Below are positions 10,601 through 23,405 of a DNA stretch of 64,000 bases, piece after piece. The notes under the pieces are model-generated. The model had not been told where the DNA came from. It did no database searches and saw only the letters and a program-made list of their open reading frames with translations. A program made the position numbers and the translations under genes. Position 1 is the stretch's first letter, and every line of letters begins with the position of its first letter. The DNA comes from Tetradesmus obliquus (lineage: Eukaryota; Chlorophyta; Chlorophyceae; Sphaeropleales; Scenedesmaceae), in contig CP126193.1 in assembly GCA_030272155.1 (NCBI GenBank), positions 7,378,001-7,442,000 of the forward strand, written 5' to 3'.

Positions 10601-13543
10601 TGAGGTGTGTCTGATTACTGCTACTGCTTCTGCTGCTGCTGCTGCTGCTTCTGCCCTGCAGAATGCGGATGACAACCGCTACCCGCCAGCTGCCGTGCCT
10701 GCGCTGGAGTTCCTGCTGCTGCCAAACTTCATTGCAGCACTCAACAACGAGGCGGGGCTGAGCGCAGCAGACCTGGCGGCGCTGTGTGACATCGGGGCAT
10801 CCACCAAACTGGAGCAGCGTTGGATTGGCTACAAGGGCATAGGCTTCAAGAGCGTGTTCAAGGTGCGGTTTCAAGGCGCCGGGTTCTATGATTGCAGAGA
10901 TTGGTTGGATGAGCTGCCCAATTGTCTGTCACTGCGCCACCACGCTGCAAAATGTGGCGTTTGTGCTGTAGCTGCTCTGCCGCGACATTGCACTCTGTGA
11001 CGCATCACCAGCAGGGCACCCTACTGCCGTGGCATTCACCACCAGGCTATGCCTGCTGCCAGCTGCTTCTTGGTGTTCTGAGTGTCCACATCTGCTTGCC
11101 AACTCCCTGCATCAGGCAACTGATGTGCCACAGCAACTGATGCGTGCATCCCTACGCTGTGCCCACCACTGACTGCTTATGTGGCTTCTATGCTCTGCAG
11201 ATGGCATCATTGAAGCAAAGCGCGCAGGCTTCAAGTGCACAAGCTGCAGCACAGTTGTGTGGCAGCAGCCAGAGGACTTCCTGCGCGTCCAGGCATGGCC
11301 TGCATCTCTGAGCTCAAGTCACGTGCGGTGCGTGTGCGGTGACGTCAAACTGCGTCTTACTCTGCCAGCAACTAGCCAGCAACCCCTGTTGGAAGTGTGT
11401 AGTAATGATATTCAACTGTATGTAATGGTATGTAGCATGTGCTGTAAGCCTGACATCTTTTTTACTTGCTGCATCATCAGCCTACCTCTCACCACAGTGG
11501 GCACATCTTTATCGGGTTGCTGTCTCTGCTGTTGCAACACAGGACTGTGGTGGATGTGGCACTGCTTCAGCTGTGGGACTCCATGCGGCTGTGCAACCCT
11601 ACCATCTCATTGAGTGGCTTCCTGAAGGGCATCGTGGACGCCGTGGCCGTTCTGCACCCCACGCAAGTGCGTCTCTGGCACGCGCATCACCCTGCATGCT
11701 TGTTTTGCTTGCTGTGTGCGCCCGGCTGACCATTCTGATCGCCCTTGCATGCACCTTGCTGCTGTGCAGCCGCGTCGAGAGATCAACATGCGCACCTTCC
11801 GCCGCGCACATCGCGAGTACAAGTTCTGCCAGACGGACCTGCGGCTTGGTCTGCAGCTGCTGAACGACCTGGAGTGCCCAGCATGCAGTGACGGCATGGC
11901 TGGCGTGCATATCGACGCCAACATGAAGCTGTTCACCTGGCTGCGGCACAGGGAGCTGTGGCGGCAGCAGCACTACAGCGAGTTCTTTGCAGACGATGCA
12001 AGCGTGCAGCCGAGTCTGCAAGCCCTGGACTTGGCAATGGGCAGCACGGTGAGGATTGTGCTGCTGTGCCACATGCTGCCTTGCATCAATAGATAGAGGC
12101 TGCCCCACGTGAACTGTCGCAACATAACATGCGCCTGTAGCTGGTACGTTTAGTGAACAACATGTGCGTTGCAATGATTGGCTTGTTGGCTGCTGTTGTG
12201 ACAGTGTGCAGTGTACAGATCAGCAGCGCCATAGCCTTGCAACGTCTGAGCTGCCTACTGGGCTGTGCTGCCTGCAACCTTTACTTGAGCATGCGCAGCT
12301 CGCGTCCCAGACAACATCTGCAATGGCTTGTGGGCTGCGGCATCTGATGGCCAGCAACGGCGGCAGGCTCAGCAGAAGATCACAGGGCGCTGTGTGGGTG
12401 AGTATGGCATGGCCCTGTTTTCCCTGCATGAACATGCAGCGCACGGGCTGGAATGGCCCTTTTCTTCTGCTCTGGACATGCAGCGCACGGGCTGGCATGA
12501 CTCTTATATGCTGCCCTTGTCGTCATTGCGGCCTTCCCTTTGGACAGTGCATTTGCCCTCACGTGATGACTTACTTCGTGTTGCGACTGCACTGCAGCAA
12601 CCGATGCACGACATGGCGGGCCAATAGCAGCCGCCAACCTGATTGGCAGTGGCGAGCGCTATGGCTATGCCTTCCACATCGCTGCCCATAACCTCATGAC
12701 CAGTGGTCTGCAACAGCTGCACATTGACATCATGTGTCAGTGGGCGGCTTGGAGCGAGCGCGTCGTTGAAGCGCTGCAGCGATACCAACCTCCCACCAGC
12801 ACGCAGCAGCAGCAACCTCTGCATCAGCAGGAGGAGCTGCAGCAGTTGCAGCAGCGCATACAAGAGCTGCGTGATCTGGTGTGCACCGGCAGCTGGGGTG
12901 CTGTGCGCAAGGCCTTGTCACACGCGCATGGCACGCTGCACTCGCAGGCTTGTCAGATGTTGTGGCAGCCTGGGTGGACCAGCGGCTGCGCCAAAACCCT
13001 GGGCGAGGAGTGCGAGCAGCTGTTTTCCCACCTGTCCAGGTTTTCTGGTACAACGCGGAACCAAAGCTCAGCAGGTGGGTGGGCTGCGCATCTGTGCAGC
13101 ATTCCGCGGTCTGGTTGCCACATAATCAGGTTTTTGCTTGGCGCTAGCTGCCCTGGGTTGGCAGTTTACAAGTGCTGCCCGATGGGACTGTTGCTGCATC
13201 ACATCTGATGTTGCTGCAGGCTCCTCAGATGCACTGACTGAGGCGGCACTGCACTTTGGCCGGCAGAAGCGAGCAAAGCAGTCTCTGCTGCTTGTCCAGC
13301 GCTACAAGAAGTTCAAGGAGCAGGAGACCAGGGCAGAGGCTGAGCGGCAGCTGGCCAGCCTTGAGCAGACACCGCCACAGGAAAGGGAGCAGCTTGTGCG
13401 GGACCTGCACGATGAGCTACGGGCCATGGCGCGAGGTGCGACAACAATCGCTATTGTTCTGCTTCTTGGTGGTTCCGTACTTGCAGCTTGCAACAGCAAC
13501 AGAACTGCAGGTGCCTGCAGCCGCATTTTGCATGCCTGCACTG

Positions 13544-13590
<47 letters not shown>

Positions 13591-16500
13591 ACCGATCAAA
13601 TTGGCCGCGCTGCCTGCAGCAGCGGCAGCAGCATGCTGAATATGGCGCTTCTTGGTTGTACTTGCAACTCCTTAGCTAACAGTAAACGTGCGGGGTCAGC
13701 CATGCAACCGTTGAGACAGGCAACTTCATATGCCTTGCAGTGACCCTGTTTGTATACTGAATGCCACAACTGATGCTACAGGCGCATTCGAGCACAATCG
13801 CCGTGTCTTAAGCCTAGAACCCTGGAGCTGGATCAACACATTGAGCCAGAGAGGGCCTTAATGGCCGCAGATGACATTGTAATATACCTATGACATGCAA
13901 TCGAATCGTTGAGAAACAGCAGACACACAGTGGCGTGCACGTCCGCGCAGCAATGCCATAATATGACTTAAAGACAGCTGCGTTGGCCACGCCATACCTT
14001 CATGGACGCAAGCGGGCTTACACAAAGCTTTAAGTGCATTGTGACAGTGCTTTGTGAAAGTGTGTGTGCATGATGGTGGCCTGATACTGTTGAGGTCACC
14101 TTGTAACTGCTGCTGCAGGCGCAGACACAGCTGCTGGCACAATCTGGCAAGGCTGCAGTGGCCCCTAACCTTGCTTTAAGTCCCCAGGGGCTATAAGGTT
14201 ACTTAAAGGCCAGCTGCAGCCCCCTAGGGCCCCTGTGGCCCATAGTCAATTCTGGGCCTTGACTGTTGTACAAATATTCTACCACGGCGTCAATTGGCCC
14301 AGGTGAGATACAAAAAACCTACATGTTAAACCCTCAAATGCAATTGATCCCTGCCATGCACACTTGTCCTTAACAGGTGTCCATTTGTCCCATGAGCCCT
14401 AGTATCCAGTTGGCCCAATCAAGTCCATTGGGCCCAAGGGCCTGTTACAAACTGTCATATACCCTCTTCAAATACCAGCTGGCTCGCCGGTGTCCCTTGT
14501 GTATGTGGTGCACATCCTGTTGCTGATCAGCACTGCCCATGGCCCCACACATTGCCTCATGCCGCATTGAGTGGTGTGCTGCTGCAGGTGCTGCACAGCA
14601 GGTGCACATGTGTTCATAATCATTACTGGCATGGTTACATCAGCTTTGTGTTTGACTTCATCTCTGTGCTTGCTGCTGCAGGTGCTGCACAGCAGGTGCT
14701 TCCTGGATGCTGCCTCAGGCTGCCATGTGGCAGTGCCTGGCATAGACATGGCCAACCACAGCAGCAGCGCAGCGAATGCAGCTGTGCAACTGCACCAGCA
14801 GCACTGCCCAGGCGCGGAGGAAGAGATTGGTTGCGGCCACAGACAAAGCCGCAGCAACATCTGGACTAGGAAGCAGTAAGAGCAGCAGCGGCAACAGCAG
14901 CTGCTTTCAGCTTGTTGCAGGTGGGTTGGCTCTTGACTGGCTGATGCACTGCAGCGACCAGCTTGAAGTGAGCTGATATGATATATACAAGCATTGATGT
15001 CAGGGTACGGCTGCTGAAACAGAGTGCCTGGCATAGACATGGCTAACCACAGCAGCACTGCAGGCAACGCGGCCGTGTGGCTGCACCAGCAGAGCAAAGA
15101 GGCTAGCGCGGCGCTTGAGGTGGTAAGGGATGACGCAGCAGCAGCTGCAGGGCTAGGAGGCAGCAGCAGCAGCAGCAGCTGCTTTCAGCTAGTTGCAGGT
15201 GGGTTTGCTGCCTAATGGTTGGAGTTGCCCAAAGCAGAGTTGCAAACTTACGTAAAGTATGATGCTGTACAAGTAAAGGCTACACACATCAGCCAACTTC
15301 AGGGCATGCAGCACCCACCTTTGTGCCCTGCGCTGTGCTGCTGTCCTTGCCTTAATGAACCTTGCAACACTCATCGCCGTTTCCGACGCTAGGGTTTTAC
15401 TTGCCTGCTGCTTCTGCTGCTGCTGTTTAATGTGCTGCCTCAGGGCCTGAAGGAGTTTCTGCTGGGGAGCAGGTCTGCATCAGCTATGGCAGCTGGCCAG
15501 CAGAGCCCTTCCTGCTGCTGTAGGGTTTTGCCCCTTCCCCAAACCCTGCTGATGCAGTGGTTGTCTGCAGCAGCTTGCAGGCCATGGCGGCGTGTTACTT
15601 TGACTATTTAAAAAGCAAGCTGACAGCTGGGGGCAATGGGCAGCAGCTGCTGCAGTGCGAGCAGCTGGGTGAGGCAGTGCAGCAGCAGCTGATTGCAGCA
15701 GGTAGCAGTAGTAGTAGTAGCAATGGGTTTGCAAACATGTCCGTTGATGCTGCTGGTGTTGATGGGCGGCTGAAAGTGGCCCTGAATGTGCTGCATGACG
15801 CCGCTGCATCTGCAGCAGCAGGCATGCTGCAGCGGCAAGCCAACAACAGCAGCAGCACACAGCAGCAGCAAGCAGATGCAGTAGGCCAATCGCAGCATGC
15901 CTGTCTGGCATCATTGGTTCGACAGGTGCAGCAGTTGAGGCTTGGTGAGCTTCTGGTGTACAGGCTGGGTGAGCTGGCTGACAACCTACAGCAATCTACC
16001 AATGCATGTGCAGCAACAATAGAGCCTTCGCAGGCGCAGCAGCAGCAAGCCGGTGTCAGCAGCAGAAACGGCAAAAGCAGCAGCAGCAGCAGCAACACCA
16101 GCAGCAGCAGCAGCAGCAACAGCAGCAGGTACCAGCCATCTGCAGAGCACCTGCAGCTCATCCAGGCCTACTGCGCCAGCAAAGCAGCGCTGGCGCGGCA
16201 GCTTGCTGCAGGGTACCCGATCAGGATGTCTGGTGTGTTCTTGGGCTGATGCAGGAGCGTGTGGTGCATCAGCATATGCCATTGCCATACAACTCACTGA
16301 GTGACTGACTCAGTCAGTGAGTCAGTGAGTTCTAAGGTCCAGGCCACACATCTGAGGGCACAAGCCAAGTGTCGCAGCGTTGTGCGTTTGGCAATTACCA
16401 CGGCTAGGTCTTTACTGATAGCGTGCTTGCTGCCTGGAGGCTGGACCGGTTGGTAACCAAAGTCAGCAGTGTCAGCTGCTGCCTGTCGCACTTGGCGGCC

Positions 16501-19500
16501 AGAACTGCACTCATACAACTGCTGGGCAGTAGTTCAGCTGTGGAGGAGTACAGGGCTTCACTCAAGCGTCAATAACGCGTCGCGTTTTTAGGTACTATCT
16601 AACTTTTCCAATGGAGAATAGCAGTGTCAGGCCGATCTGCCTAGCACTCACAGGCAGATTTGGCACTGCTGGAGCAAGGTCTAGCCAAGTACTTCACATA
16701 CCTGCCCCTGTCAGTCACCAAAACAGACCAAGAGGTCAATCAAAAGGTTATCACATGGTTAACCATCGGTATAATCCACTCACAAGTCTCTCAAATGCAA
16801 AACTTGACTGTGCCATCCAGGGCGGGAGCAGCTGCCAGCTGTCACATCCACTTTCAGTCCCTGCCATGCACAACAGTGGCTGCACAATGCAAAATGTGAC
16901 ACTATCTGCACAATGCACTCAGATAGGGCCCATCCACAGGCTGTAGCAGAGGGTAAGGACTATCCAAAGGACTACTTGCCCAAAAGTGCCCAAAAGTATG
17001 CATGGGCATCCAGTATTACATGAATTTATATGCAAAGTTGATCTCGTAACAAAAAAAAAAGTTGATCTGTACTGTTGATTGACTGGCAGTTGACAAAAGC
17101 ACAGTGGCAAGCCCAAAAGTGCCCAAAAGTGTTGGGCAAGTGTCTTGCCGTTCAGGCATAATAATTTTAGTCTTCTTGTAAGCCATACCTTAACGGCATC
17201 GGCAACCGCGCCCCGTAACGGAGCGGAAACTACGACTATTATTGCCTCTCTATTGGTGAGGGGTAGACGCCGTTCAGGCATGAGCTAAGGCGCCGCTTTT
17301 GTACAACAGCAGCACAACCATGCCACCCACGAGGACAAATATTATCACCATCACCAACTCCTTAGGCTTTTCTGTGCCCCAACTGACAACTTGGGCCAGC
17401 AGCTGAACGAGCCACAACCAGGGCTGTTTCAGCTCCAGAGCTGTCACCGCAGCTCCCCAGACACCCCAAAACCCCAACCAGCCCCAAAAGGGGGCGGGTG
17501 TCAGAGCTGCCCAACCATGCTTCAGCACGGCAGTGATGAGCAGCACCAAGGTCACCAACACCACCAGCGAGGGTGGGACCCAGCGAAGTACAGGGAAGTC
17601 CCCTGCGCAACATGACAAACTGATTCTTCATAACTCACATGGGCTCATGCAACTGTCGTGTGCAAGATACTAATAGCGGTGGCAGCAGTGGCAACTTTAC
17701 GGCAACAACAACCACACCAAACAACCTGCTGGCTATGTTGTTACAAGCAACACCCACACCACAGCAAAACACCACAGCAACACAGAATGCACGAGGGGCC
17801 TGCATGTAACGGTATGCCTAATGACTGGGCAGTGGGTGTGGCCTTAATGAGCCTTGACATGCTCATGGTCACTGCCAAGAGCTCCTTTGGTCAACACACG
17901 CACTGCCGCACAGTACACGGCCATGATATCATCCATGGCAGTGCGCATCTTGGGCCCACCTGCAGGCAAGGCAGCAGGGGCATGCGAGAACACAGACGAT
18001 TGCGGGAACAGGGGTGCATGTTGCAGGCACAACCGCATGACATGCAGGAGGGAGTCATGAAGGGTTCATGCACAGGGGCGGGAAACGCAGCACGAGGCAC
18101 GCAGTGTGCTGCAGAGCTTCACACAGGAGCCGCCACACTGCAGCGGCGCAGCAAAAGCAAAGCACCGATGCAGAATGCACAGGGCATGCTGCATGCTGCC
18201 TATGTGGTACTCTTGCTACTGGAGCATGTTGTATAATCGCTGCTCCACATGCAGTGGCTGCTCATGGCCGAAAGCCTTGCAAGAACTGTGTGGTTTTGGG
18301 CGGTAGTGCAGGGCTGCCAGGTACTTGGGCAGTGTTCAAGCATGCCTCGTGACACTGCTCCATGAGCGTGCTGTTATGAAGAATGTCCTGGCAAAGCACT
18401 GCTCACTCTAGACTGCGGAAGAATCATCGCTGAAGGAATTACGCCCTAGCAAAGCGCTGCTTGGTGGGCACGCGCAGTGTGATAACCCAGCTTGCATAAT
18501 CAATAGGTTTACACTCCATGCTGCTGTGGCAGCTCGGGCTGCAGAAAACCTTCCCATGGGACCAGCACATAGTCTTGCAGAAGAGTTGGCAGCAACTGCT
18601 GGCATGCGCCACAGGCGGCCGCTGCATGCTGACATACCACCAATGCTCAACTCCAACGCTCACCTGGTGCTGTTGTGGTGAAGCAGGGCCGCCAAGGAAT
18701 GGCAGTTGATGGCGCATGCACAGGAGCAAGGCAGGGCAGAGCAGGGCAGCACAGGTCAACATCAGTGGCGTATGCAATCAGCATTATGCATGCAGCATTC
18801 AGGAGTGCAGGACTGTAATGTGGCACTCTTGTGTTGTCTTTTGACAGCGCAGAGTGCACACAAAGATTGACCTGTGCAGAGTGTGTGTGGCACTGGTGCA
18901 TGCTATGATTGGGAGTGCAGAGTGTTGTGGTTTTATGTTGCTGCAACATAGCTGGCTGCAGCAAAAGCCTTCACATGGATCTGAAATGCAGTTGCCTCGC
19001 TGATTCTAATCGGTTACAGATAGCATGAGGGTAGCTACCATGCGCCAGGTGGTGCTGCATGTAGTGCTCTTAATAAACAGGACTGCTGGGGCATGGGCTT
19101 TAGCAGCTGCTTTACAAGCAACTGCAAGCAACGCTGGTTTGGCAGCCTTGCAAGTACATGCATGACTCACCTCCTCCTCCTCCTGCTGCTGCTGCTGCGG
19201 GACGAGAGAAGAAGCCAGGTGGTAGCCATGAACAGCACATGCAAGGACACGTGGGCAGGAGATCAGCAAATGGTCAAACAAAGAAGCTTGCAGCATGACA
19301 ACACAGTGGCTAGCAGCGCACAGGAGCATGCAGGAGGGTGTTGCAGAGGTGGACAACAACACAAGATGTGCAATGTCGGTCAAGAAAGGGTGGGGTGGGA
19401 AAGCAAAGCGTGGAGGGGGCATACATTCCACACCGCAGCATGCATCATCAACATGGACACAAGCAGGCATCGTGTGCATTGAAGGGCTTGCATGCATGCA

Positions 19501-22500
19501 GCAAAGCACTTGCTACAGCACCATAGGAAAAACATAGCAACACCGGGTGCATGCAGTAGCACTGCTGACAGCTGGGGAATGCTGCTCTCCATGGTTGCTG
19601 CAAGCTTGCTTGATAAGCAGCTGATGTAGGTTGCCAGGAAAGCTGCGACCCAGCCGCACCTGCCTGCTGCTGCATGAGCAGCACCTTCTCCTGCCGCAGC
19701 GGTGCCAGCTCCTGCCGCAGTGCTGTCAGCTGCTGCAGCAGCAGCAACTCCCGGTCTCCAGAAGCATCCTGCAGCTGCCGCTTCACAAGCTCAACCTCGG
19801 CCTCCTTGGCGACAATCTTCTGCTCTACTGTCTCTGGTGTTGTAGACATGTTCTCCCTGCAGCAAGCAGCAGCATATGGGGTGCATCTTCCTCAAATCCA
19901 ACAAGTGATTCACGGCTCCTGCGATGTGGATAAGCTCAGCTTGTCTATGGATAAGCTCAGCTTTCTCAGACCTTGCGAGCGTCGCCTCCAAAGACAGTGC
20001 GCAGCTCTTCGGCCTCAATGATTCTTTCAACAATGCTTGCAAGCGCCTGCGAGCGTTTCGGATCGTTCGACGCAAGAATGCTCAATGTGCTTCTGTGCCG
20101 TGGCAGTGCGTTTGCAGGCAGTGTCAATGTTTGTTTGTGCAATTGGTACAGATAATGGCAAGAAAGTGAGGCTGTGGGTTGCATGGAGTTCGGGGTTTTT
20201 CGGACCCAAGGCACTAATGTGGCCAGAGAACTGCCTGCAATTGAAAAATTGGTCAATGCCCTCTCAAATTGTTCGAAGTAACGCATTAATCATCGTTGGT
20301 TTCTGATCTCTGCAAGTGCAGTGTCATATTTCAAGACAAGACGATTGTGTGGCACTACTGGCTCAGTCGAACAATGGTAATTTCAACCAATATTCAGAAT
20401 ACGAATAATGGAAGTTCTTCGATTATTCGTCCGCAAAGAAGGAGTTGTCATCATATTTTCGCAGGCCCCTGCGCTGACAAATATGCAGCAGCACACCCAC
20501 AAATGACACGGCCACTGCGACTGCGTAAATGCGTCTGAATGAAGCTTGTTGCCGTCACAACTGTTGAATGCTATGTTCCCTTTAGATGAGCTGACGATCC
20601 AGCAGTCTTATACAGAGCTCCAATGCAAACACTACAGCAGCCAAATGAACAGCAGCAGAGGCGTCAGCAGCGTGCTGCACAGCCACAGCAGCAGCGCCAG
20701 CAGCATTCTACGCAGCTGCCTGATGGTCTGTATATGCAGCAGCAGCAGTACATGTATCAGGACTTTCAACAGCAGGTGTCTGCATACACCCAGCAGCACG
20801 CACGACCGCAGCAGCGCAAAAAAGCCCCGGTGTCAGGGAGCAGGCGCCAACGCTCAGATGCTGGTGTTCCCAGGGGCCCACGTGCAAAGCCTAATGCAGA
20901 AGACGCTCAGCAGCAAGCGTGGAGGATGGATGCTGAATTCAGGCTGCATATGCAGCAGCATACCAGCAGCAGGATGATCAGGAGGACAGCCAGCACTCAA
21001 TCCCTGCCTGGGACATGCTGCAGCAGCAGCTGCAAGCGCTGCACCAGCAACAGCTAACAGCACAGCAGGAATATGCAGCCGTGCACGCTGCTCAGGCAGG
21101 GCAGGGCCGACGATCAGACCATCAGCGGCGCACAGAAGAGAGCTATAAGCAGTACCGTGCAGCCGCTCCTGCGCTGGCATGCCGTGTGCTTGAGCAGCAG
21201 GCGGCGCCACCTGCCCACAGCAGCTGCAGTGTTTGCCAGCAGACTGGTTGCACCGTACGGTACGATGCGCAGTGCTGCACAAACCAGAACCAACACGGGC
21301 GGCATAATGCATGAGTCATGCCTGACGCGGTGCGAACTGTTGCTTTTGCAGGTGCTTCACCTGCCACCCTGCAGCCGAATGCCATGTGCTGCTGTGTGAC
21401 AGCTGTGACACGCAGCGTCATGCAGCAACCCACCTGCATGACAGGCAGCAGTATGTTGCTGCTAGGCACTGGCAAGACCTCCCCAGCGCCGACACCGCTG
21501 CTGGTGAGTGTTCGTGCGCAGCAAGCTCTCTCCTTGCTTTGTAATCTGTAACAAGGCGGACATGACCAACTTCTTAGTTCGCGCTCCCGCAGGGTACTTC
21601 CCCTTCAAGCCCACCTCATGCACCGGCTGTGGACAGTCTGGCTGTTTTGAGGCTGAGCCGTGCGCGCTGCAGCCGCTGGATTACATCACGCGTGGTGAGG
21701 CACCGGTAACGCAGTACTGCACAGCACTAGTTCTGTCAGCATGCTCGAGTCGCATGTAGCACGTATTTGTGGACAACAAGGTCGGCATTGTCATGTGACC
21801 GTGTTGTGTTTCGGGCGATTGCTGTGCTGATAGCTTATCGTAGGCACCACAACACAAGCTTTTTGCTTCTATGCTCTGCAGATGGCATCATTGAAGCAAA
21901 GCGCGCAGGCCTCAAGTGCACAAGCTGCAGCACAGTTGTGTGGCAGCAGCCGGAGGACTTCCTGCGCGTCCAGGCATGGCCTGCATCTCTGAGCTCAAGT
22001 CACGTGCGGTGCGTGTGCGGTGACGTCAAACTGCGTCTTACTCTGCCAGCAACTAGCCAGCAACCCCTGTTGGAAGTGTGTGGTAATGATATTCAACTGT
22101 ATGTAATGGTATGTAGCATGTGCTGTAAGCCTGACATCTTTTTTACTTGCTGCATCATCAGCCTACCTCTCACCACAGTGGGCACATCTTTATCAGGGTT
22201 GCTGTTTCTGCTGTTGCAACACAGGACTGTGGTGGATGTGGCACTGCTTCAGCTGTGGGACTCCATGCGGCTGTGCAACCCTACCATCTCATTGAGTGGC
22301 TTCCTGAAGGGCATCGTGGACGCCGTGGCCGTTCTGCACCCCACGCAAGTGCGTCTCTGGCACGCGCATCACCCTGCATGCTTGTTTTGCTTGCTGTGTG
22401 CGCCCGGCTGACCATTCTGATCGCCCTTGCATGCACCTTTCTGCTGTGCAGCCGCGTCGAGAGATCAACATGCGCACCTTCCGCCGCGCACATCGCGAGT

Positions 22501-23405
22501 ACAAGTTCTGCCAGACGGACCTGCGGCTTGGTCTGCAGCTGCTGAACGACCTGGAGTGCCCAGCATGCAGTGACGGCATGGCTGGCGTGCATATCGACGC
22601 CAACATGAAGCTGTTCACCTGGCTGCGGCACAGGGAGCTGTGGCGGCAGCAGCACTACAGCGAGTTCTTTGCAGACGATGCAAGCGTGCAGCCGAGTCTG
22701 CAAGCCCTGGACTTGGCAATGGGCAGCACGGTGAGGATTGTGCTGCTGTGCCACATGCTGCCTTGCATCAATAGATAGAGGCTGCCCCACGTGAACTGTC
22801 GCAACATAACATGCGCCTGTAGCTGGTACGTTTAGTGAACAACATGTGCGTTGCAATGATTGGCTTGTTGGCTGCTGTTGTGACAGTGTGCAGTGTACAG
22901 ATCAGCAGCGCCATAGCCTTGCAACGTCTGAGCTGCCTACTGGGCTGTGCTGCCTGCAACCTTTACTTGAGCATGCGCAGCGCCGCGTCCCAGACAACAT
23001 CTGCACTCCCTTGAAATTTGCTTCCCTGCGCCAGGTCACTGACGCGCCCCAGGTGCACAGCAACGGCTTCCACGTCTGCTTTGACCTGGCGGCAGACGCC
23101 ACACTGGGCTACATGCCGGCTTGCGACCGTTCTGGCGTCTGTGCTGCAACTTCTGCCATTCTGCTGCAACATCTCACCTACGGCACATCAACAGCCAGGC
23201 ACTCTGCTGGCGTGTGCCTTATCTTGCTTTGCCAACTGACTGCTTCTGCGGCTTGCTTTGTTTTTGTGATTTTCTTTGCGCCAGGTCACCGACTCGCCCC
23301 AGGTGCACAGCAACGGCTTCCACGTCTGCTTTGACCTGGCGGCAGACGCCACACTGGGCTACATCCTGCCAACCTGGCTGGAGCCAGCTGATCGCACAGC
23401 AGCAG
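1..23405 (+). CDS. NOV: NO VEIN-like protein, copy I (5' part, start lies before the window)
   Basis: Homologue of plant NO VEIN, a large nuclear GHKL-ATPase-domain protein that in Arabidopsis acts in vascular and cell-fate patterning; the algal role is unknown. Exons with agreeing phases are 1-332 (end may be 323), 636-797, 1150-1754, 2061-2265, 2762-2911, 3092-3722, 4135-4204, 4973-6124, 6251-6762, 7166-7390, 7647-7777, 8250-8757, 9736-10161, 10662-10862 and 23285-23405, all GT..AG. An optional exon lies at 10530-10604. The upstream stretch is Q/A/S-rich; the diagnostic part is 9736-10862. Copy I has one extra G near 3605, inside the Q/E/R repeat of exon 3092-3722, which breaks that frame unless the copy-I-specific GT at about 3640 is used as a donor. 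No C-terminal NOV region follows 23.9 kb. I infer a truncated gene or pseudogene, with the family assignment firm. Confidence 0.85.
1150..2265 (+). CDS. NOV: NOV copy I: acidic/poly-A exon and following helical exon
   Basis: Exon 1150-1754 opens with VSHGSEDDDDEEE, runs through poly-Q, poly-A and a VVIVDERPAPK motif, and ends in an ordered segment with FDAALLDRRLVLPLVWNAAA. The split codon AG|G joins it in frame to exon 2061-2265 (RRVATLWDLRQQLLALHGLR ... AELAEVPA), which ends at a clean donor GCG|GTGAGT. The 306 bp intron contains the 10 bp minisatellite at 1945-2041. The phases fit exactly, which supports both exons. Confidence 0.7.
1945..2041 (+). repeat. 10 bp minisatellite TACCAGATTG, about 9 copies (unit 1)
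   Basis: Repeats of TACCAGATTG, two carrying an inserted TAG and one starting CACC. It lies in the NOV intron just before the exon at 2061. Units 2 and 3 have five copies (28614-28663, 52836-52885), one with GATCG. Confidence 0.95.
2266..2761 (+). other. NOV intron with a duplicated exon end (unit 1 only)
   Basis: At 2341-2398, GTGTCACCAGCAG..CGCTTCTTCTC to GAGGTGCCTGCG|GTGGGT repeats the end of exon 2061-2265, about 135 bp downstream. A coding-looking stretch at 2499-2680 follows without a clear donor. All of this is absent from units 2 and 3. Confidence 0.6.
2762..2911 (+). CDS. NOV: NOV copy I-only exon, lost from copies II and III
   Basis: A 50-codon phase 0-0 exon with TGCATGCAG acceptor and CTACAG|GTGAGT donor, encoding VTARGIAHAVLCRELRLWLA and ending DLLPQALQ. 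It joins in frame to 2061-2265 on the left and 3092 on the right. It lies in the ~906 bp that units 2 and 3 lack, so it shows the older gene structure. A further open stretch, 2499-2680, has coding-like content (the motif AALLQCAAPEYFCFLSAKNA) but I find no good donor for it. Confidence 0.6.
3092..3722 (+). CDS. NOV: NOV copy I: Q/E/R coiled repeat exon, frame-broken
   Basis: Starts DLQPARHGSAAG after GTGCCGCAG and includes TDALHAAEAALLSLMLTQ and KKDYQDLEVLYAAQAAG. It then runs into a WQQRWQQRQQERQQER repeat likely to form a charged helix. In units 2 and 3 the frame continues through the repeat into TVWVPDKLGLPEGKYQALLE and ends at CCGAG|GTGTGT. In copy I one additional G in the repeat near 3605 shifts the frame. 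Copy I also reads GGTACT where the others read GGCACT, creating a possible donor at about 3640. Confidence 0.6.
4135..6124 (+). CDS. NOV: NOV copy I: small exon plus the large Q/A-rich exon
   Basis: The 70 bp exon 4135-4204 (ATLKSRACFSEQGYLAAF...) leaves one base, which completes GAG with the first two bases of 4973-6124. The big exon encodes ELATEAQELTGCQG, a helical segment VLKVLLQLLQHVLFYAVNGR, poly-Q and poly-A linkers, an acidic serine-rich stretch (SSDDESGQADSGSSDEQ), a basic RKRQRRAVPDD and the ordered block VSAEQLQEALSELSQVTGFS to LGADSLLQLLQQQPQ. It ends at CAAG|GTAAGT. The 768 bp intron between the two exons holds the 75 bp and 40 bp repeats. Function of these parts is unknown. Confidence 0.75.
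4201..4520 (+). repeat. 75 bp minisatellite, just over 4 copies (unit 1)
   Basis: Copies start at 4201, 4276, 4351, 4426 and (partial) 4501. Each has GCAGGTGTGGCCACAGGG, a GGTTTAGGTTCAGCAG-like stretch and GTGAGAACATGA. The first overlaps the donor of the small NOV exon (CCTAGCAG|GTGCGG), so each copy repeats a donor-like CAG|GTGTGG. The period is 25 codons, so open frames of 25-residue repeats arise on both strands; I regard these as by-products. Units 2 and 3 carry it at 29935-30254 and 54157-54476. Confidence 0.9.
4587..4706 (+). repeat. 40 bp repeat, 3 copies in unit 1, 1 in units 2 and 3
   Basis: GTGATGTGCTACATGCTGCA followed by ACATATGATGATGCCATAAG, at 4587, 4627 and 4667 (the last one base shorter). 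Units 2 and 3 have a single version with ATAATGATGCGATAAG at 30322 and 54544. Intronic. Confidence 0.9.
6251..6762 (+). CDS. NOV: NOV copy I: exon with HFGRHDTVCWLKLSLA
   Basis: Using the acceptor TTGTAGGCAG at 6250, the leftover G of the previous exon makes GCT and the frame runs A-K-V-I-D-A-K-S-A-W-T-A-V-HFGRHDTVCWLKLSLA. The exon continues through a poly-A tract to VSVEDALCCLAAAPQLAELH and ends GSSWQQ-like at CAACAG|GTGCGT. Copies II and III lack six bases (residues CL) after SR. The last 42 bases are duplicated at 6893-6934 with acceptor and donor. Confidence 0.7.
7166..8757 (+). CDS. NOV: NOV copy I: three exons that are fused in copies II and III
   Basis: Exon 7166-7390 encodes VYQPSLGPLAQFLAAHGAAS, then poly-Q, and ends MLCSSK|gtgcgc. 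Exon 7647-7777 encodes GDGVGAVSCALSLVALSAGL and LMAEHIAAGLQVLAAKH, ending with AG of a split AGG codon. Exon 8250-8757 supplies the G and encodes GEAQPSSLHSS, then HAAASFVLRCLVLLPAPLTV, LLLQPLYSLIGSSAAAQGLL and LSVLHVLGWQLGI, ending DAGDAK|gtgagg. Units 2 and 3 lack 1085 bp from mid-first exon to mid-third exon, leaving one in-frame exon without the GDGVGAVSC block. The helical, hydrophobic middle is probably a buried core. Confidence 0.7.
8650..9240 (+). repeat. Array of degenerate exon-end/donor repeats (unit 1)
   Basis: The 3' end of NOV exon 8250-8757 (GATGCTGGTGATGCAAAG|GTGAGGAC) recurs about three more times at 8888, 9042 and 9181, each with (A/C)AG|GTGAGGAC followed by a related CAAGCTCT and CAACAGCTGTTT spacer. 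Period is about 130-155 bp and similarity fades downstream. Units 2 and 3 have it at about 33229-33820 and 57445-58036. Confidence 0.75.
9306..9690 (+). repeat. 35 bp minisatellite, 11 perfect copies (unit 1 only)
   Basis: Eleven copies of GGTGTACCAGCATGTTGGTG plus CCCTGATACAAAACA, starting at 9306 and every 35 bp to 9656, all apparently identical. Units 2 and 3 have one copy (33884 and 58100). It is in the NOV intron before exon 9736. Because 35 is not a multiple of three, long reverse-strand open frames of a 35-residue repeat arise; they are not genes. Confidence 0.97.
9736..10862 (+). CDS. NOV: NOV copy I: GHKL/HATPase ATP-binding domain
   Basis: Exon 9736-10161 (142 codons, phase 0-0) ends with the family signature IRAREFGVGLGLK, then ARLGRALQRLSQELYSSSSH and FVLELVQ. 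Exon 10662-10862 (67 codons) follows with NADDNRYPP, ALEFLLLP, LNNEAGLSAADLAALCDIG and IGYKGIGFKSVFK. The N-box E-x3-N-A-D-D is therefore split by the intron (E in the first exon, NADD in the second). The G2-like G-x-K-G-I-G-F-K-S glycine loop is intact. In known NOV and sacsin relatives this fold binds ATP and Mg. An alternative N-box exon lies at 10530-10604. Confidence 0.92.
10530..10604 (+). CDS. Duplicated N-box mini-exon of NOV copy I
   Basis: A 75 bp, 25-codon, phase 0-0 exon with GCTACAG acceptor and CTGAG|GTGTGT donor. It encodes NADDNCYQQDTVRALE followed by TLLLPAPSE. It copies the first ~22 codons of the next exon (NADDNRYPPAAVPALE FLLLP). Included together with that exon it would put two N-box halves in tandem; used instead of it, it would drop the glycine loop. 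Units 2 and 3 have F in place of T (34758-34832 and 58974-59048). Which form is spliced cannot be told from DNA. Confidence 0.6.
10863..11183 (+). other. NOV intron between ATPase exon and KDZ junction
   Basis: Starts with donor AAG|GTGCGG. I see no gene. The last part (GACTGCTTATGTGG) is loosely like intron sequence just before the full VTDSPQ exon at 23245-23284, in keeping with both flanks belonging to one NOV intron. Same in units 2 and 3 (35094-35414, 59310-59630). Confidence 0.5.
11201..13435 (+). CDS. KDZ transposase, middle and C-terminal part (left copy, unit 1)
   Basis: Exons 11201-11394, 11481-11666, 11770-12048, ~12289-12397, 12598-13074 and 13220-13435; most phases agree. Family marks in order: LECPACSDGMAGVHIDAN and FFADDASVQ; VPDNICNGLWAAASDG with KITGRCV; DARHGGPIAAANLIGSGERY; LHIDIMCQWAAW; then HAHGTLHSQACQ, TLGEECEQLFSHLSRFSGTT; and a coiled tail RYKKFKEQETRAEAERQLAS. 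These match the KDZ (Kyakuja-Dileera-Zisupton) core, and the likely acidic triad is D of HIDAN, D of HIDIMC and E of GEECE. The usual CRHG is ARHG here. The N-terminal CxC/B-box exons are absent, as the left end is the junction at 11184. Confidence 0.85.
13436..14681 (+). other. Spacer between KDZ C-terminal exons and SET-like gene (unit 1)
   Basis: Contains the CTG run, no clear further KDZ exon, and then about 900 bp without recognised coding content. Small inverted repeats are visible, such as TGGCCCAAT with ATTGGGCCCA around 14411-14436 and C/G-rich blocks near 14165-14245. A truncated copy of the next exon start (GTGCTGCACAGCAGGTGC after CTGCTGCAG) is at 14588. The right transposon end could be here. 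Same at 37667-38903 and 61883-63122. Confidence 0.5.
13546..13590 (+). repeat. CTG run, 15 copies (12 in unit 2, 13 in unit 3)
   Basis: Pure (CTG)15 downstream of the last clear KDZ exon. The same run is (CTG)12 at 37777-37812 and (CTG)13 at 61993-62031. It is a convenient marker that tells the three units apart. Confidence 0.97.
14682..16249 (+). pseudogene. SET-domain lysine methyltransferase-like gene (unit 1)
   Basis: Resembles the C-terminal half of a SET domain of the Rubisco-LSMT/SETD3/SETD6 type. Exon 14682-14920 has VLHSRCFLDAASGCHVAVPG and GIDMANHSSSAANAAV (the N-H-S motif). Exon 15023-15198 repeats VPGIDMANHSSTAGNAAV and ends SCFQLVAG. Exon 15444-16249 continues in frame with EGVSAGEQVCISYGSWPAEP, FLLL, then TAG at 15521 exactly where the family has the Tyr of Y-G-F. 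It goes on in frame GFAPSPNPADAVVVC and into a helical tail like the LSMT substrate-binding domain, ending GVFLG. Frames disagree inside the first NHS exon, so both versions are incomplete. No N-terminal SET part is seen at 13.5-14.6 kb. Probably a decayed gene; whether host or transposon cargo is open. Confidence 0.65.
16291..16331. repeat. Imperfect palindrome just after the SET-like gene
   Basis: AACTCACTGAGTGACTGACT followed by CAGTCAGTGAGTCAGTGAGTT; the outer ten bases on each side pair exactly. It lies 40 bp beyond the SET-like stop and could form a hairpin in RNA. Also at 40513-40553. Confidence 0.7.
16332..17273. other. Spacer without recognised gene; small repeats
   Basis: I see no convincing gene. 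Notable items are GCCCAAAAGTGCCCAAAAGT twice (about 16979 and 17111), an A-run flanked by AAAGTTGATCT, and a 13 bp direct repeat GCCGTTCAGGCAT at 17147 and 17269. Same in unit 2 (40554-41495). Confidence 0.5.
17147..17281. repeat. 13 bp direct repeats around a 109 bp insert-like block
   Basis: GCCGTTCAGGCAT occurs at 17147-17159 and 17269-17281. Just inside, AATAATTTTAGTC faces GACTATTATT, an imperfect inverted pair. This looks like a very small non-autonomous insertion or solo remnant with a target duplication, but may be chance. Unit 2 copy at 41369-41503. Confidence 0.35.
17274..17602 (-). CDS. Multi-pass membrane exon (C-terminal) of the minus-strand gene, unit 1
   Basis: After acceptor GTTGCGCAG the frame reads GDFPVLRWVPPSLVVLVTLV, then LLITAVLKHGW, a tryptophan-rich segment FWGWLGFWGVWGAAV, LKQPWLWLVQLLAQVVSW, a short charged loop GTEKPKE and LVMVIIFVLVGGMVVLLLY, ending SGALAHA and stop. 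Four hydrophobic stretches of about 15-20 residues suggest membrane helices. It is one of the few long open stretches here not caused by triplet repeats. Confidence 0.5.
17274..19849 (-). CDS. Unrecognised minus-strand gene: coiled-coil start, membrane last exon (unit 1)
   Basis: I infer one multi-exon gene but could not place every exon. A first coding exon at 19849-19660 starts MSTTPETVEQKIVAKEAEVE, continues with QLTALRQELAPLRQEKVLLM, a clear heptad-rich coiled coil, and ends at a CAG|GTGCGG donor. Later minus-strand exon candidates include one ending in poly-Q/E at a GAG|GTGAGT donor (~19190), GPKMRTAMDDIMAVYCAAVR (~17960), and the last exon 17602-17274. I do not recognise the family. It is transcribed away from the KDZ gene start at 20.6 kb, so the two may share the 19.85-20.6 kb promoter region. 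It may be transposon cargo. Confidence 0.4.
19850..20622. other. Divergent region between minus-strand gene and KDZ transposase start
   Basis: AT-richer than its surroundings. Contains a tandem pair GGATAAGCTCAGCTT (about 19928, 19949), an inverted repeat CGAATAAT/ATTATTCG near 20401-20429, and a 106-codon minus-strand open frame (19966-20286, with ASIVERIIEAEELRTVFGGD) that could be an upstream exon. Likely holds the transposase promoter or a transposon end; neither could be pinned down. Unit 2 copy at 44072-44844. Confidence 0.4.
20623..23005 (+). CDS. KDZ transposase, N-terminal and middle part (right copy, unit 1)
   Basis: Q-rich start (ATG 20623), then exons 20943-21269, 21352-21503, 21593-21694 and 21882-22075, with phases agreeing. 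The third and fourth carry a B-box-like cysteine/histidine set (CSVCQQTGC, CFTCHPAAECHVLLCDSCD, H-x3-H) and CTGCGQSGC, as in the CxC domains found before KDZ transposase cores. DGIIEAKRAGLKCTSC and VQAWPASLSS follow. The next exon has one additional A (ATCAGGG for ATCGGG near 22195), shifting its frame. The exon REINMRTFRRAHREYKFC ... ECPACSDGMAGVHIDANMKL is intact (22452-22730). The gene then stops at the 23005 junction with the NOV intron, so this copy lacks the catalytic C-terminus. Confidence 0.8.

Follow-up and report, generated by a model that had tools for sequence, protein, structure and literature searches.

Segmental and tandem duplication can carry transposons. Within the KDZ (Kyakuja-Dileera-Zisupton) superfamily of transposons, Zisupton is described as the only group that is well characterised with ends and target-site duplications, the duplications being 8 bp long, and two Kyakuja families of Laccaria are described with 7-bp duplications, 5'-CA..TG-3' ends and no clear terminal inverted repeats (TIRs) (PMC12730594). 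Zisupton and Kyakuja elements are reported to be present in Chlamydomonas genomes (PMC8226300). Transposon circles as such have been described, and circular hAT elements that reintegrate have been reported (PMC2803484). No account of KDZ circles was found in the opening lines of the abstracts on KDZ or Zisupton elements and circles.

The window (the whole stretch of 64,000 nucleotides that was analysed; positions in it are preceded by w) is C3:7378001-7442000 of the 104.66 Mb, 17-contig genome of Tetradesmus obliquus. It is contained entirely in a five-unit tandem array at C3:7375340-7500978 with periods of 23.9-26.5 kb, which had no place in the original prediction for this DNA. The array covers the region of a sacsin/NO VEIN-like gene and its edges fall at an equal unit position (around w24037/24041). 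An insertion with KDZ sequence at both ends, flanked by host gene sequence, was present in all five units. Its middle portion of the KDZ gene, M, occurs twice, so that the array holds five left and five right copies. The features are as follows.

w10662..10862, forward strand: host coding sequence preceding the insertion (NADDN..GIGFKSVFK), starting where the protein match starts
w10863..23034, forward strand: predicted host intron holding the insertion, donor AAG/GTGCGG after w10862, acceptor GCGCCAG/GTCACTGAC after w23034
w11184..12322, forward strand: M-left, KDZ middle, 5'-truncated within the element (alignment reaches w12330)
w12323..13772, forward strand: KDZ segment downstream of M (C segment) with most of the KDZ domain, breaking off within the element
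w13773..13787, forward strand: joint sequence of 15 bp, which is either filler or KDZ that has strongly diverged; found in every one of the five array units but in neither of the two C16 regions examined
w13788..14477, forward strand: repeat Y, about 690 bp, whose ends recur exactly at C5:2288987 and C7:2074796, with an identity of about 96%
w14479..20352, forward strand: repeat Z, from a different family and truncated on the left, into which KDZ had formerly inserted; parts of it also on C8, C7, C15, C6, C16 and elsewhere
w20353..21864, forward strand: authentic KDZ left end (CACTACTGGC..) and N-terminal gene part
w21865..23005, forward strand: M-right, KDZ middle, 3'-truncated within the element (alignment reaches w23013)
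w23035..23115, forward strand: coding part downstream of the insertion (VTDAPQVHSNGFHVCFD..), ending where the protein match ends
w35415..47235, forward strand: insertion of unit 2, with M-left at w35415-36561 and M-right at w46087-47235 as aligned
w59631..64000, forward strand: insertion of unit 3, running past the window end, with M-left at w59631-60777

The direct alignment of w11184-12330 with w21865-23013 in unit 1 had 1149 columns and 99.04% identity, in agreement with the original prediction that the insertion begins and ends with the same 1.14 kb. The last 8 aligned bases of M-right deviate at three positions, which indicated that M-right truly ends at w23005, as had also been predicted, and that the matching left position is w12322. 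M-left is preceded by intron sequence of the host gene and followed by the KDZ transposase domain (PF18758, E 6.6e-11, around w12600-13070), and M-right is preceded by the N-terminal part of the KDZ gene and followed by the gene intron and an exon. A CxC3 cysteine cluster (PF18804, E 5e-7, around w21845-22036) straddles the start of M-right. The assignment to KDZ was thus borne out by both domains, and so was the order M-C ... N-M with its head-to-tail topology longer than one repeat length.

The joined exon peptides of the two flanks matched the SACS domain PF25794 (E 3.4e-12; the query peptide was typed from the exons and its end mixes two of the gene's repeated exons), which upholds the earlier claim of an intron in a NOV-type gene. 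No NOV/sacsin domain was found by Pfam scans of single reading frames in the six frames of w24000-33883, in the forward frames of w9400-13800, w20300-24100 and w13700-20400 or in the reverse frames of w9400-12300. The two splice sites, as read from the sequence, would bound one intron of 12.2 kb, in which 321 bp of host intron are left beside the insertion on the upstream side and 29 bp on the downstream side. Among 21 matches to the peptide, the sole relative outside the array was C14:241241-241477, where query residues 26-98 lie in one open frame. Given that this frame spans the exon junction, the two flanks of the insertion are neighbouring coding sequence, and since coding sequence of one domain is found on both sides, both outer breakpoints lie within one intron. 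Two other repeats were observed in this region, a 149-bp repeat of about 3.5 copies (w23334-23862) by which part of the coding sequence of the NO VEIN-like gene is multiplied and a perfect 35-bp minisatellite of 11.1 copies (w9304-9690) just 5' of the gene in unit 1.

The extent of the KDZ element was determined from its relatives. Six relatives, about 90% identical, all start near w20350, and the left end was refined to w20353; the right end was placed where the C8 and C6 relatives stop resembling each other. When the genome was searched with the 26-mer of the left end, allowing up to 3 mismatches, 14 sites were obtained, namely five in the C3 array and three in a cluster on C16, all flanked by Z, and six in elements with two ends. 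The right-end motif, also with up to 3 mismatches, occurred at 7 sites genome-wide, none of them in the C3 array or the C16 cluster, and the seventh (on C10) had no left-end match. Pairing by position and strand gave both ends at six loci (C4, C6 twice, C8, C15 and C16:1196416) with lengths of 10.6 to 15.8 kb; the C8 copy was read end to end, C6:5544572-5557922 in part and the other four by their ends and search hits. Exact 8-bp target-site duplications were present in five of the six, and in the sixth the same 8-mer is displaced by 2 bp on the right. The element ends are 5'-CA..TG-3'. The original prediction had asked for full-length relatives in the order N-terminus, middle, C-terminus with TIRs; the relatives exist at these six loci, but a clear TIR was not found in the C8 copy, where the subterminal matches are short (best 11 bp). 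A long TIR was also rejected on the grounds that all 14 genome-wide sites of the left-end 26-mer are left ends. Besides its CA..TG ends and 8-bp duplication, the C8 copy (C8:1631257-1644580) carries a minisatellite with a 29-bp unit in about 46 copies as well as an 18-bp repeat, and its KDZ domain matched PF18758 with E 3.9e-7. No TET/JBP genes were found in the forward frames of three pieces of this element or in the reverse frames of two of them.

With the ends defined, the insertion could be divided into KDZ and other sequence. In the relatives, KDZ does not stop at the equivalent of w13772: it continues, closely similar, in the C8 copy, in four copies on C16 and in one further C16 fragment. 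The right end of the C8 copy lies about 9.3 kb beyond that point. The window fragments (w11184-13772 and w20353-23005) represent about 4.1 of the 13.3 kb of the C8 copy, which leaves about two thirds of the element unrepresented. Directly before the left end at w20353 stands Z, not the other KDZ end, and at the two loci read, on C15 and C6, Z runs unbroken and without KDZ through the KDZ insertion point. The possibility that Z is a part of KDZ was rejected on the basis of this uninterrupted Z at both loci and of the six relatives that begin at w20353. The original prediction had held that the insertion is a circularly permuted KDZ element; the stretch it gave as 13.4-20.6 kb would then belong to KDZ, and the complete relatives identified 13.79-20.35 kb as foreign repeat, a result that it had itself named first among those speaking against it. 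A circular permutation is also contradicted by the joint, which is not end-to-end, and by the absence of about two thirds of the element.

The joint (w13772, the 15 bp, Y and w14479) links interior points of a chromosomal segment composed of Z with KDZ inserted in it (Z-KDZ), as expected for a duplication made by end joining. Among the hits of the Y and Z searches in this genome, no Y-Z or C-Y junction was found outside the C3 array, and no evident target-site duplication was found around Y. The same Z-KDZ junction is shared by C3 and C16, which argues that they are related by duplication and not by separate transpositions. In the C16 cluster, a pair of Z-KDZ copies lies in the same orientation at a distance of about 20.2 kb, and one KDZ copy is internally deleted. 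In the first of the two Z-KDZ copies (C16:1364001-1404000), KDZ is followed directly by a 253-bp Z piece (99% identical), a joint of the head-to-tail type. Like-oriented pairs of Z were found at C7:1236995/1252469 (spacing 15,474), C15:1176214/1183691 (7,477) and C11:2892690/2898541 (5,851), and their like orientation and constant spacing match segmental tandem duplications.

We consider the structure real and its cause most likely ordinary: with a probability of roughly 0.55, the insertion would be a normal copy of a tandemly duplicated Z-KDZ chromosome segment, placed in the NOV intron. In this scheme an older insertion of KDZ into Z would have given Z-KDZ, which would then have been duplicated head-to-tail by end joining at the interior points w13772/14479. 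Slightly more than one repeat length would have been captured into the intron in one break-repair event, and the host gene with its insertion would afterwards have been amplified to five units. What was observed directly is the block with its joint and the presence of five units; the capture in a single event is proposed by parsimony. A stretch that exceeds one period of a head-to-tail repeat starts and ends alike, so the terminal M copies alone do not imply a circle, and the interior joint, the like-oriented Z pairs and the C16 Z-KDZ pair favour capture from a tandem repeat. Direct order, a joint at non-terminal points and the inclusion of sequence beyond the transposon, all properties of head-to-tail segmental duplication, were found here. 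A source tandem repeat with the same joint was not present outside the C3 array among the hits of the Y and Z searches.

The same order would be produced exactly if an extrachromosomal circle of the chromosomal Z-KDZ fragment had recombined by homology with an earlier 1.14 kb KDZ scrap in the intron (ends-in gene targeting) and so duplicated the scrap on both sides. The joint w13772/14479 could equally be a circle joint or a tandem joint, and the position of both outer breakpoints in one intron also fits, but two events are required and we regard this reading as unlikely. The M copies bear on it in both directions. The alignment of M took in the ten copies on C3, the C8 copy and four on C16, one of these partial, and substitutions were counted in a slice ending two bases short of the M ends. 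M-left and M-right differ by 6 substitutions in 1137 positions (0.53%, two indels excluded), and either differs from three C16 copies by 1.05-1.41% (indels excluded). Positions 620 and 828 separate all ten C3 copies from all four C16 copies and C8. Taken together these figures suggest that the two C3 M copies are sisters younger than the split between C3 and C16, and shared bases absent from C16 and C8 are unexpected for a scrap and a circle of separate origins, unless conversion has erased the difference. This argument is weakened by the C segment, which at 0.49-0.76% is about as near to C16 as M-left is to M-right, so that scrap and circle could be separate family members, and by the Z-N part, which differs from two C16 copies by 0.72% and 1.31%; moreover, the two bases common to all C3 copies may have been spread by conversion. 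In unit 5 (C3:7488001-7489148 and 7498803-7499950) M-left and M-right bear each other's private bases, and this exchange suggests gene conversion between M copies. The KDZ fragment that had been predicted to sit in the NOV intron beforehand is unproven, as this genome yielded no NOV intron with M alone, whether in the five array units or elsewhere, and no empty NOV allele. An intron with M alone would in any case not be diagnostic, because recombination between two M copies leaves the same thing.

Somewhat less probable still is that a complete head-to-tail Z-KDZ dimer once lay in the intron and that two deletions took away its outer parts. The final order would be identical, and KDZ copies are as a rule truncated in both clusters, C3 and C16, which lack the right-end motif and, on C16, include the internally deleted copy; however, the two deletions would have to be independent, and each would have to stop within the short intron, of which 321 bp are left on one side and 29 bp on the other, with the exons unharmed. 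An assembly artefact is very improbable: the region is a repetitive tandem array whose sequence is known here from the assembly alone, but the private differences between M-left and M-right at positions 47 and 341 recur in all five units, and between units the insertion blocks diverge by 0.03-0.68%. Least probable is that the KDZ transposon was itself excised, closed into a circle by the joining of its ends and then recombined with a fragment of KDZ lying in the intron. Such a circle would give the order of the gene parts and the terminal direct repeats, and it has a parallel in the reintegrating excised circles reported for hAT (PMC2803484). This reading was rejected because the mapped KDZ ends are not joined: the left end at w20353 still has Z beside it, the right end is lacking, some 9.3 kb of the C8 element have no counterpart, and Y and Z lie in between.

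These results indicate that a permuted order with terminal direct repeats of a transposon does not prove a circle and that the deciding evidence is the true element ends, mapped with relatives that keep both. The analysis has in addition delimited a KDZ family well, at six loci that keep both ends and show duplications, and this family is of use in annotating the superfamily. Were the Z-KDZ circle nevertheless the true origin, it would represent a case, in the genome of a eukaryote, of ends-in gene targeting for which transposon fragments had provided the seed.

Compared with known systems, the window resembles KDZ elements in its transposase domain and CxC3 cysteine cluster and differs in that it has no mobile unit, its KDZ content being a pair of overlapping pieces from the first third of the element. 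The relatives are like Zisupton in their 8-bp duplications (the window copy, having no right end, cannot show any) and unlike it in having no clear TIR (C8); they are like Kyakuja in their CA..TG ends and unlike it in having duplications of 8 bp instead of 7 bp. With the episomal hAT elements hobo and Hermes there is a likeness in that a reintegrating circle could produce a permuted and duplicated order, but in many of the circles reported for these elements both ends are intact and mostly separated by 1-1000 bp (PMC2803484), whereas in the window one end is missing and the other stands on chromosomal Z. To segmental and tandem duplication there is a likeness in the like-oriented Z and Z-KDZ repeats at several loci and in the five-unit C3 array, with no essential difference.
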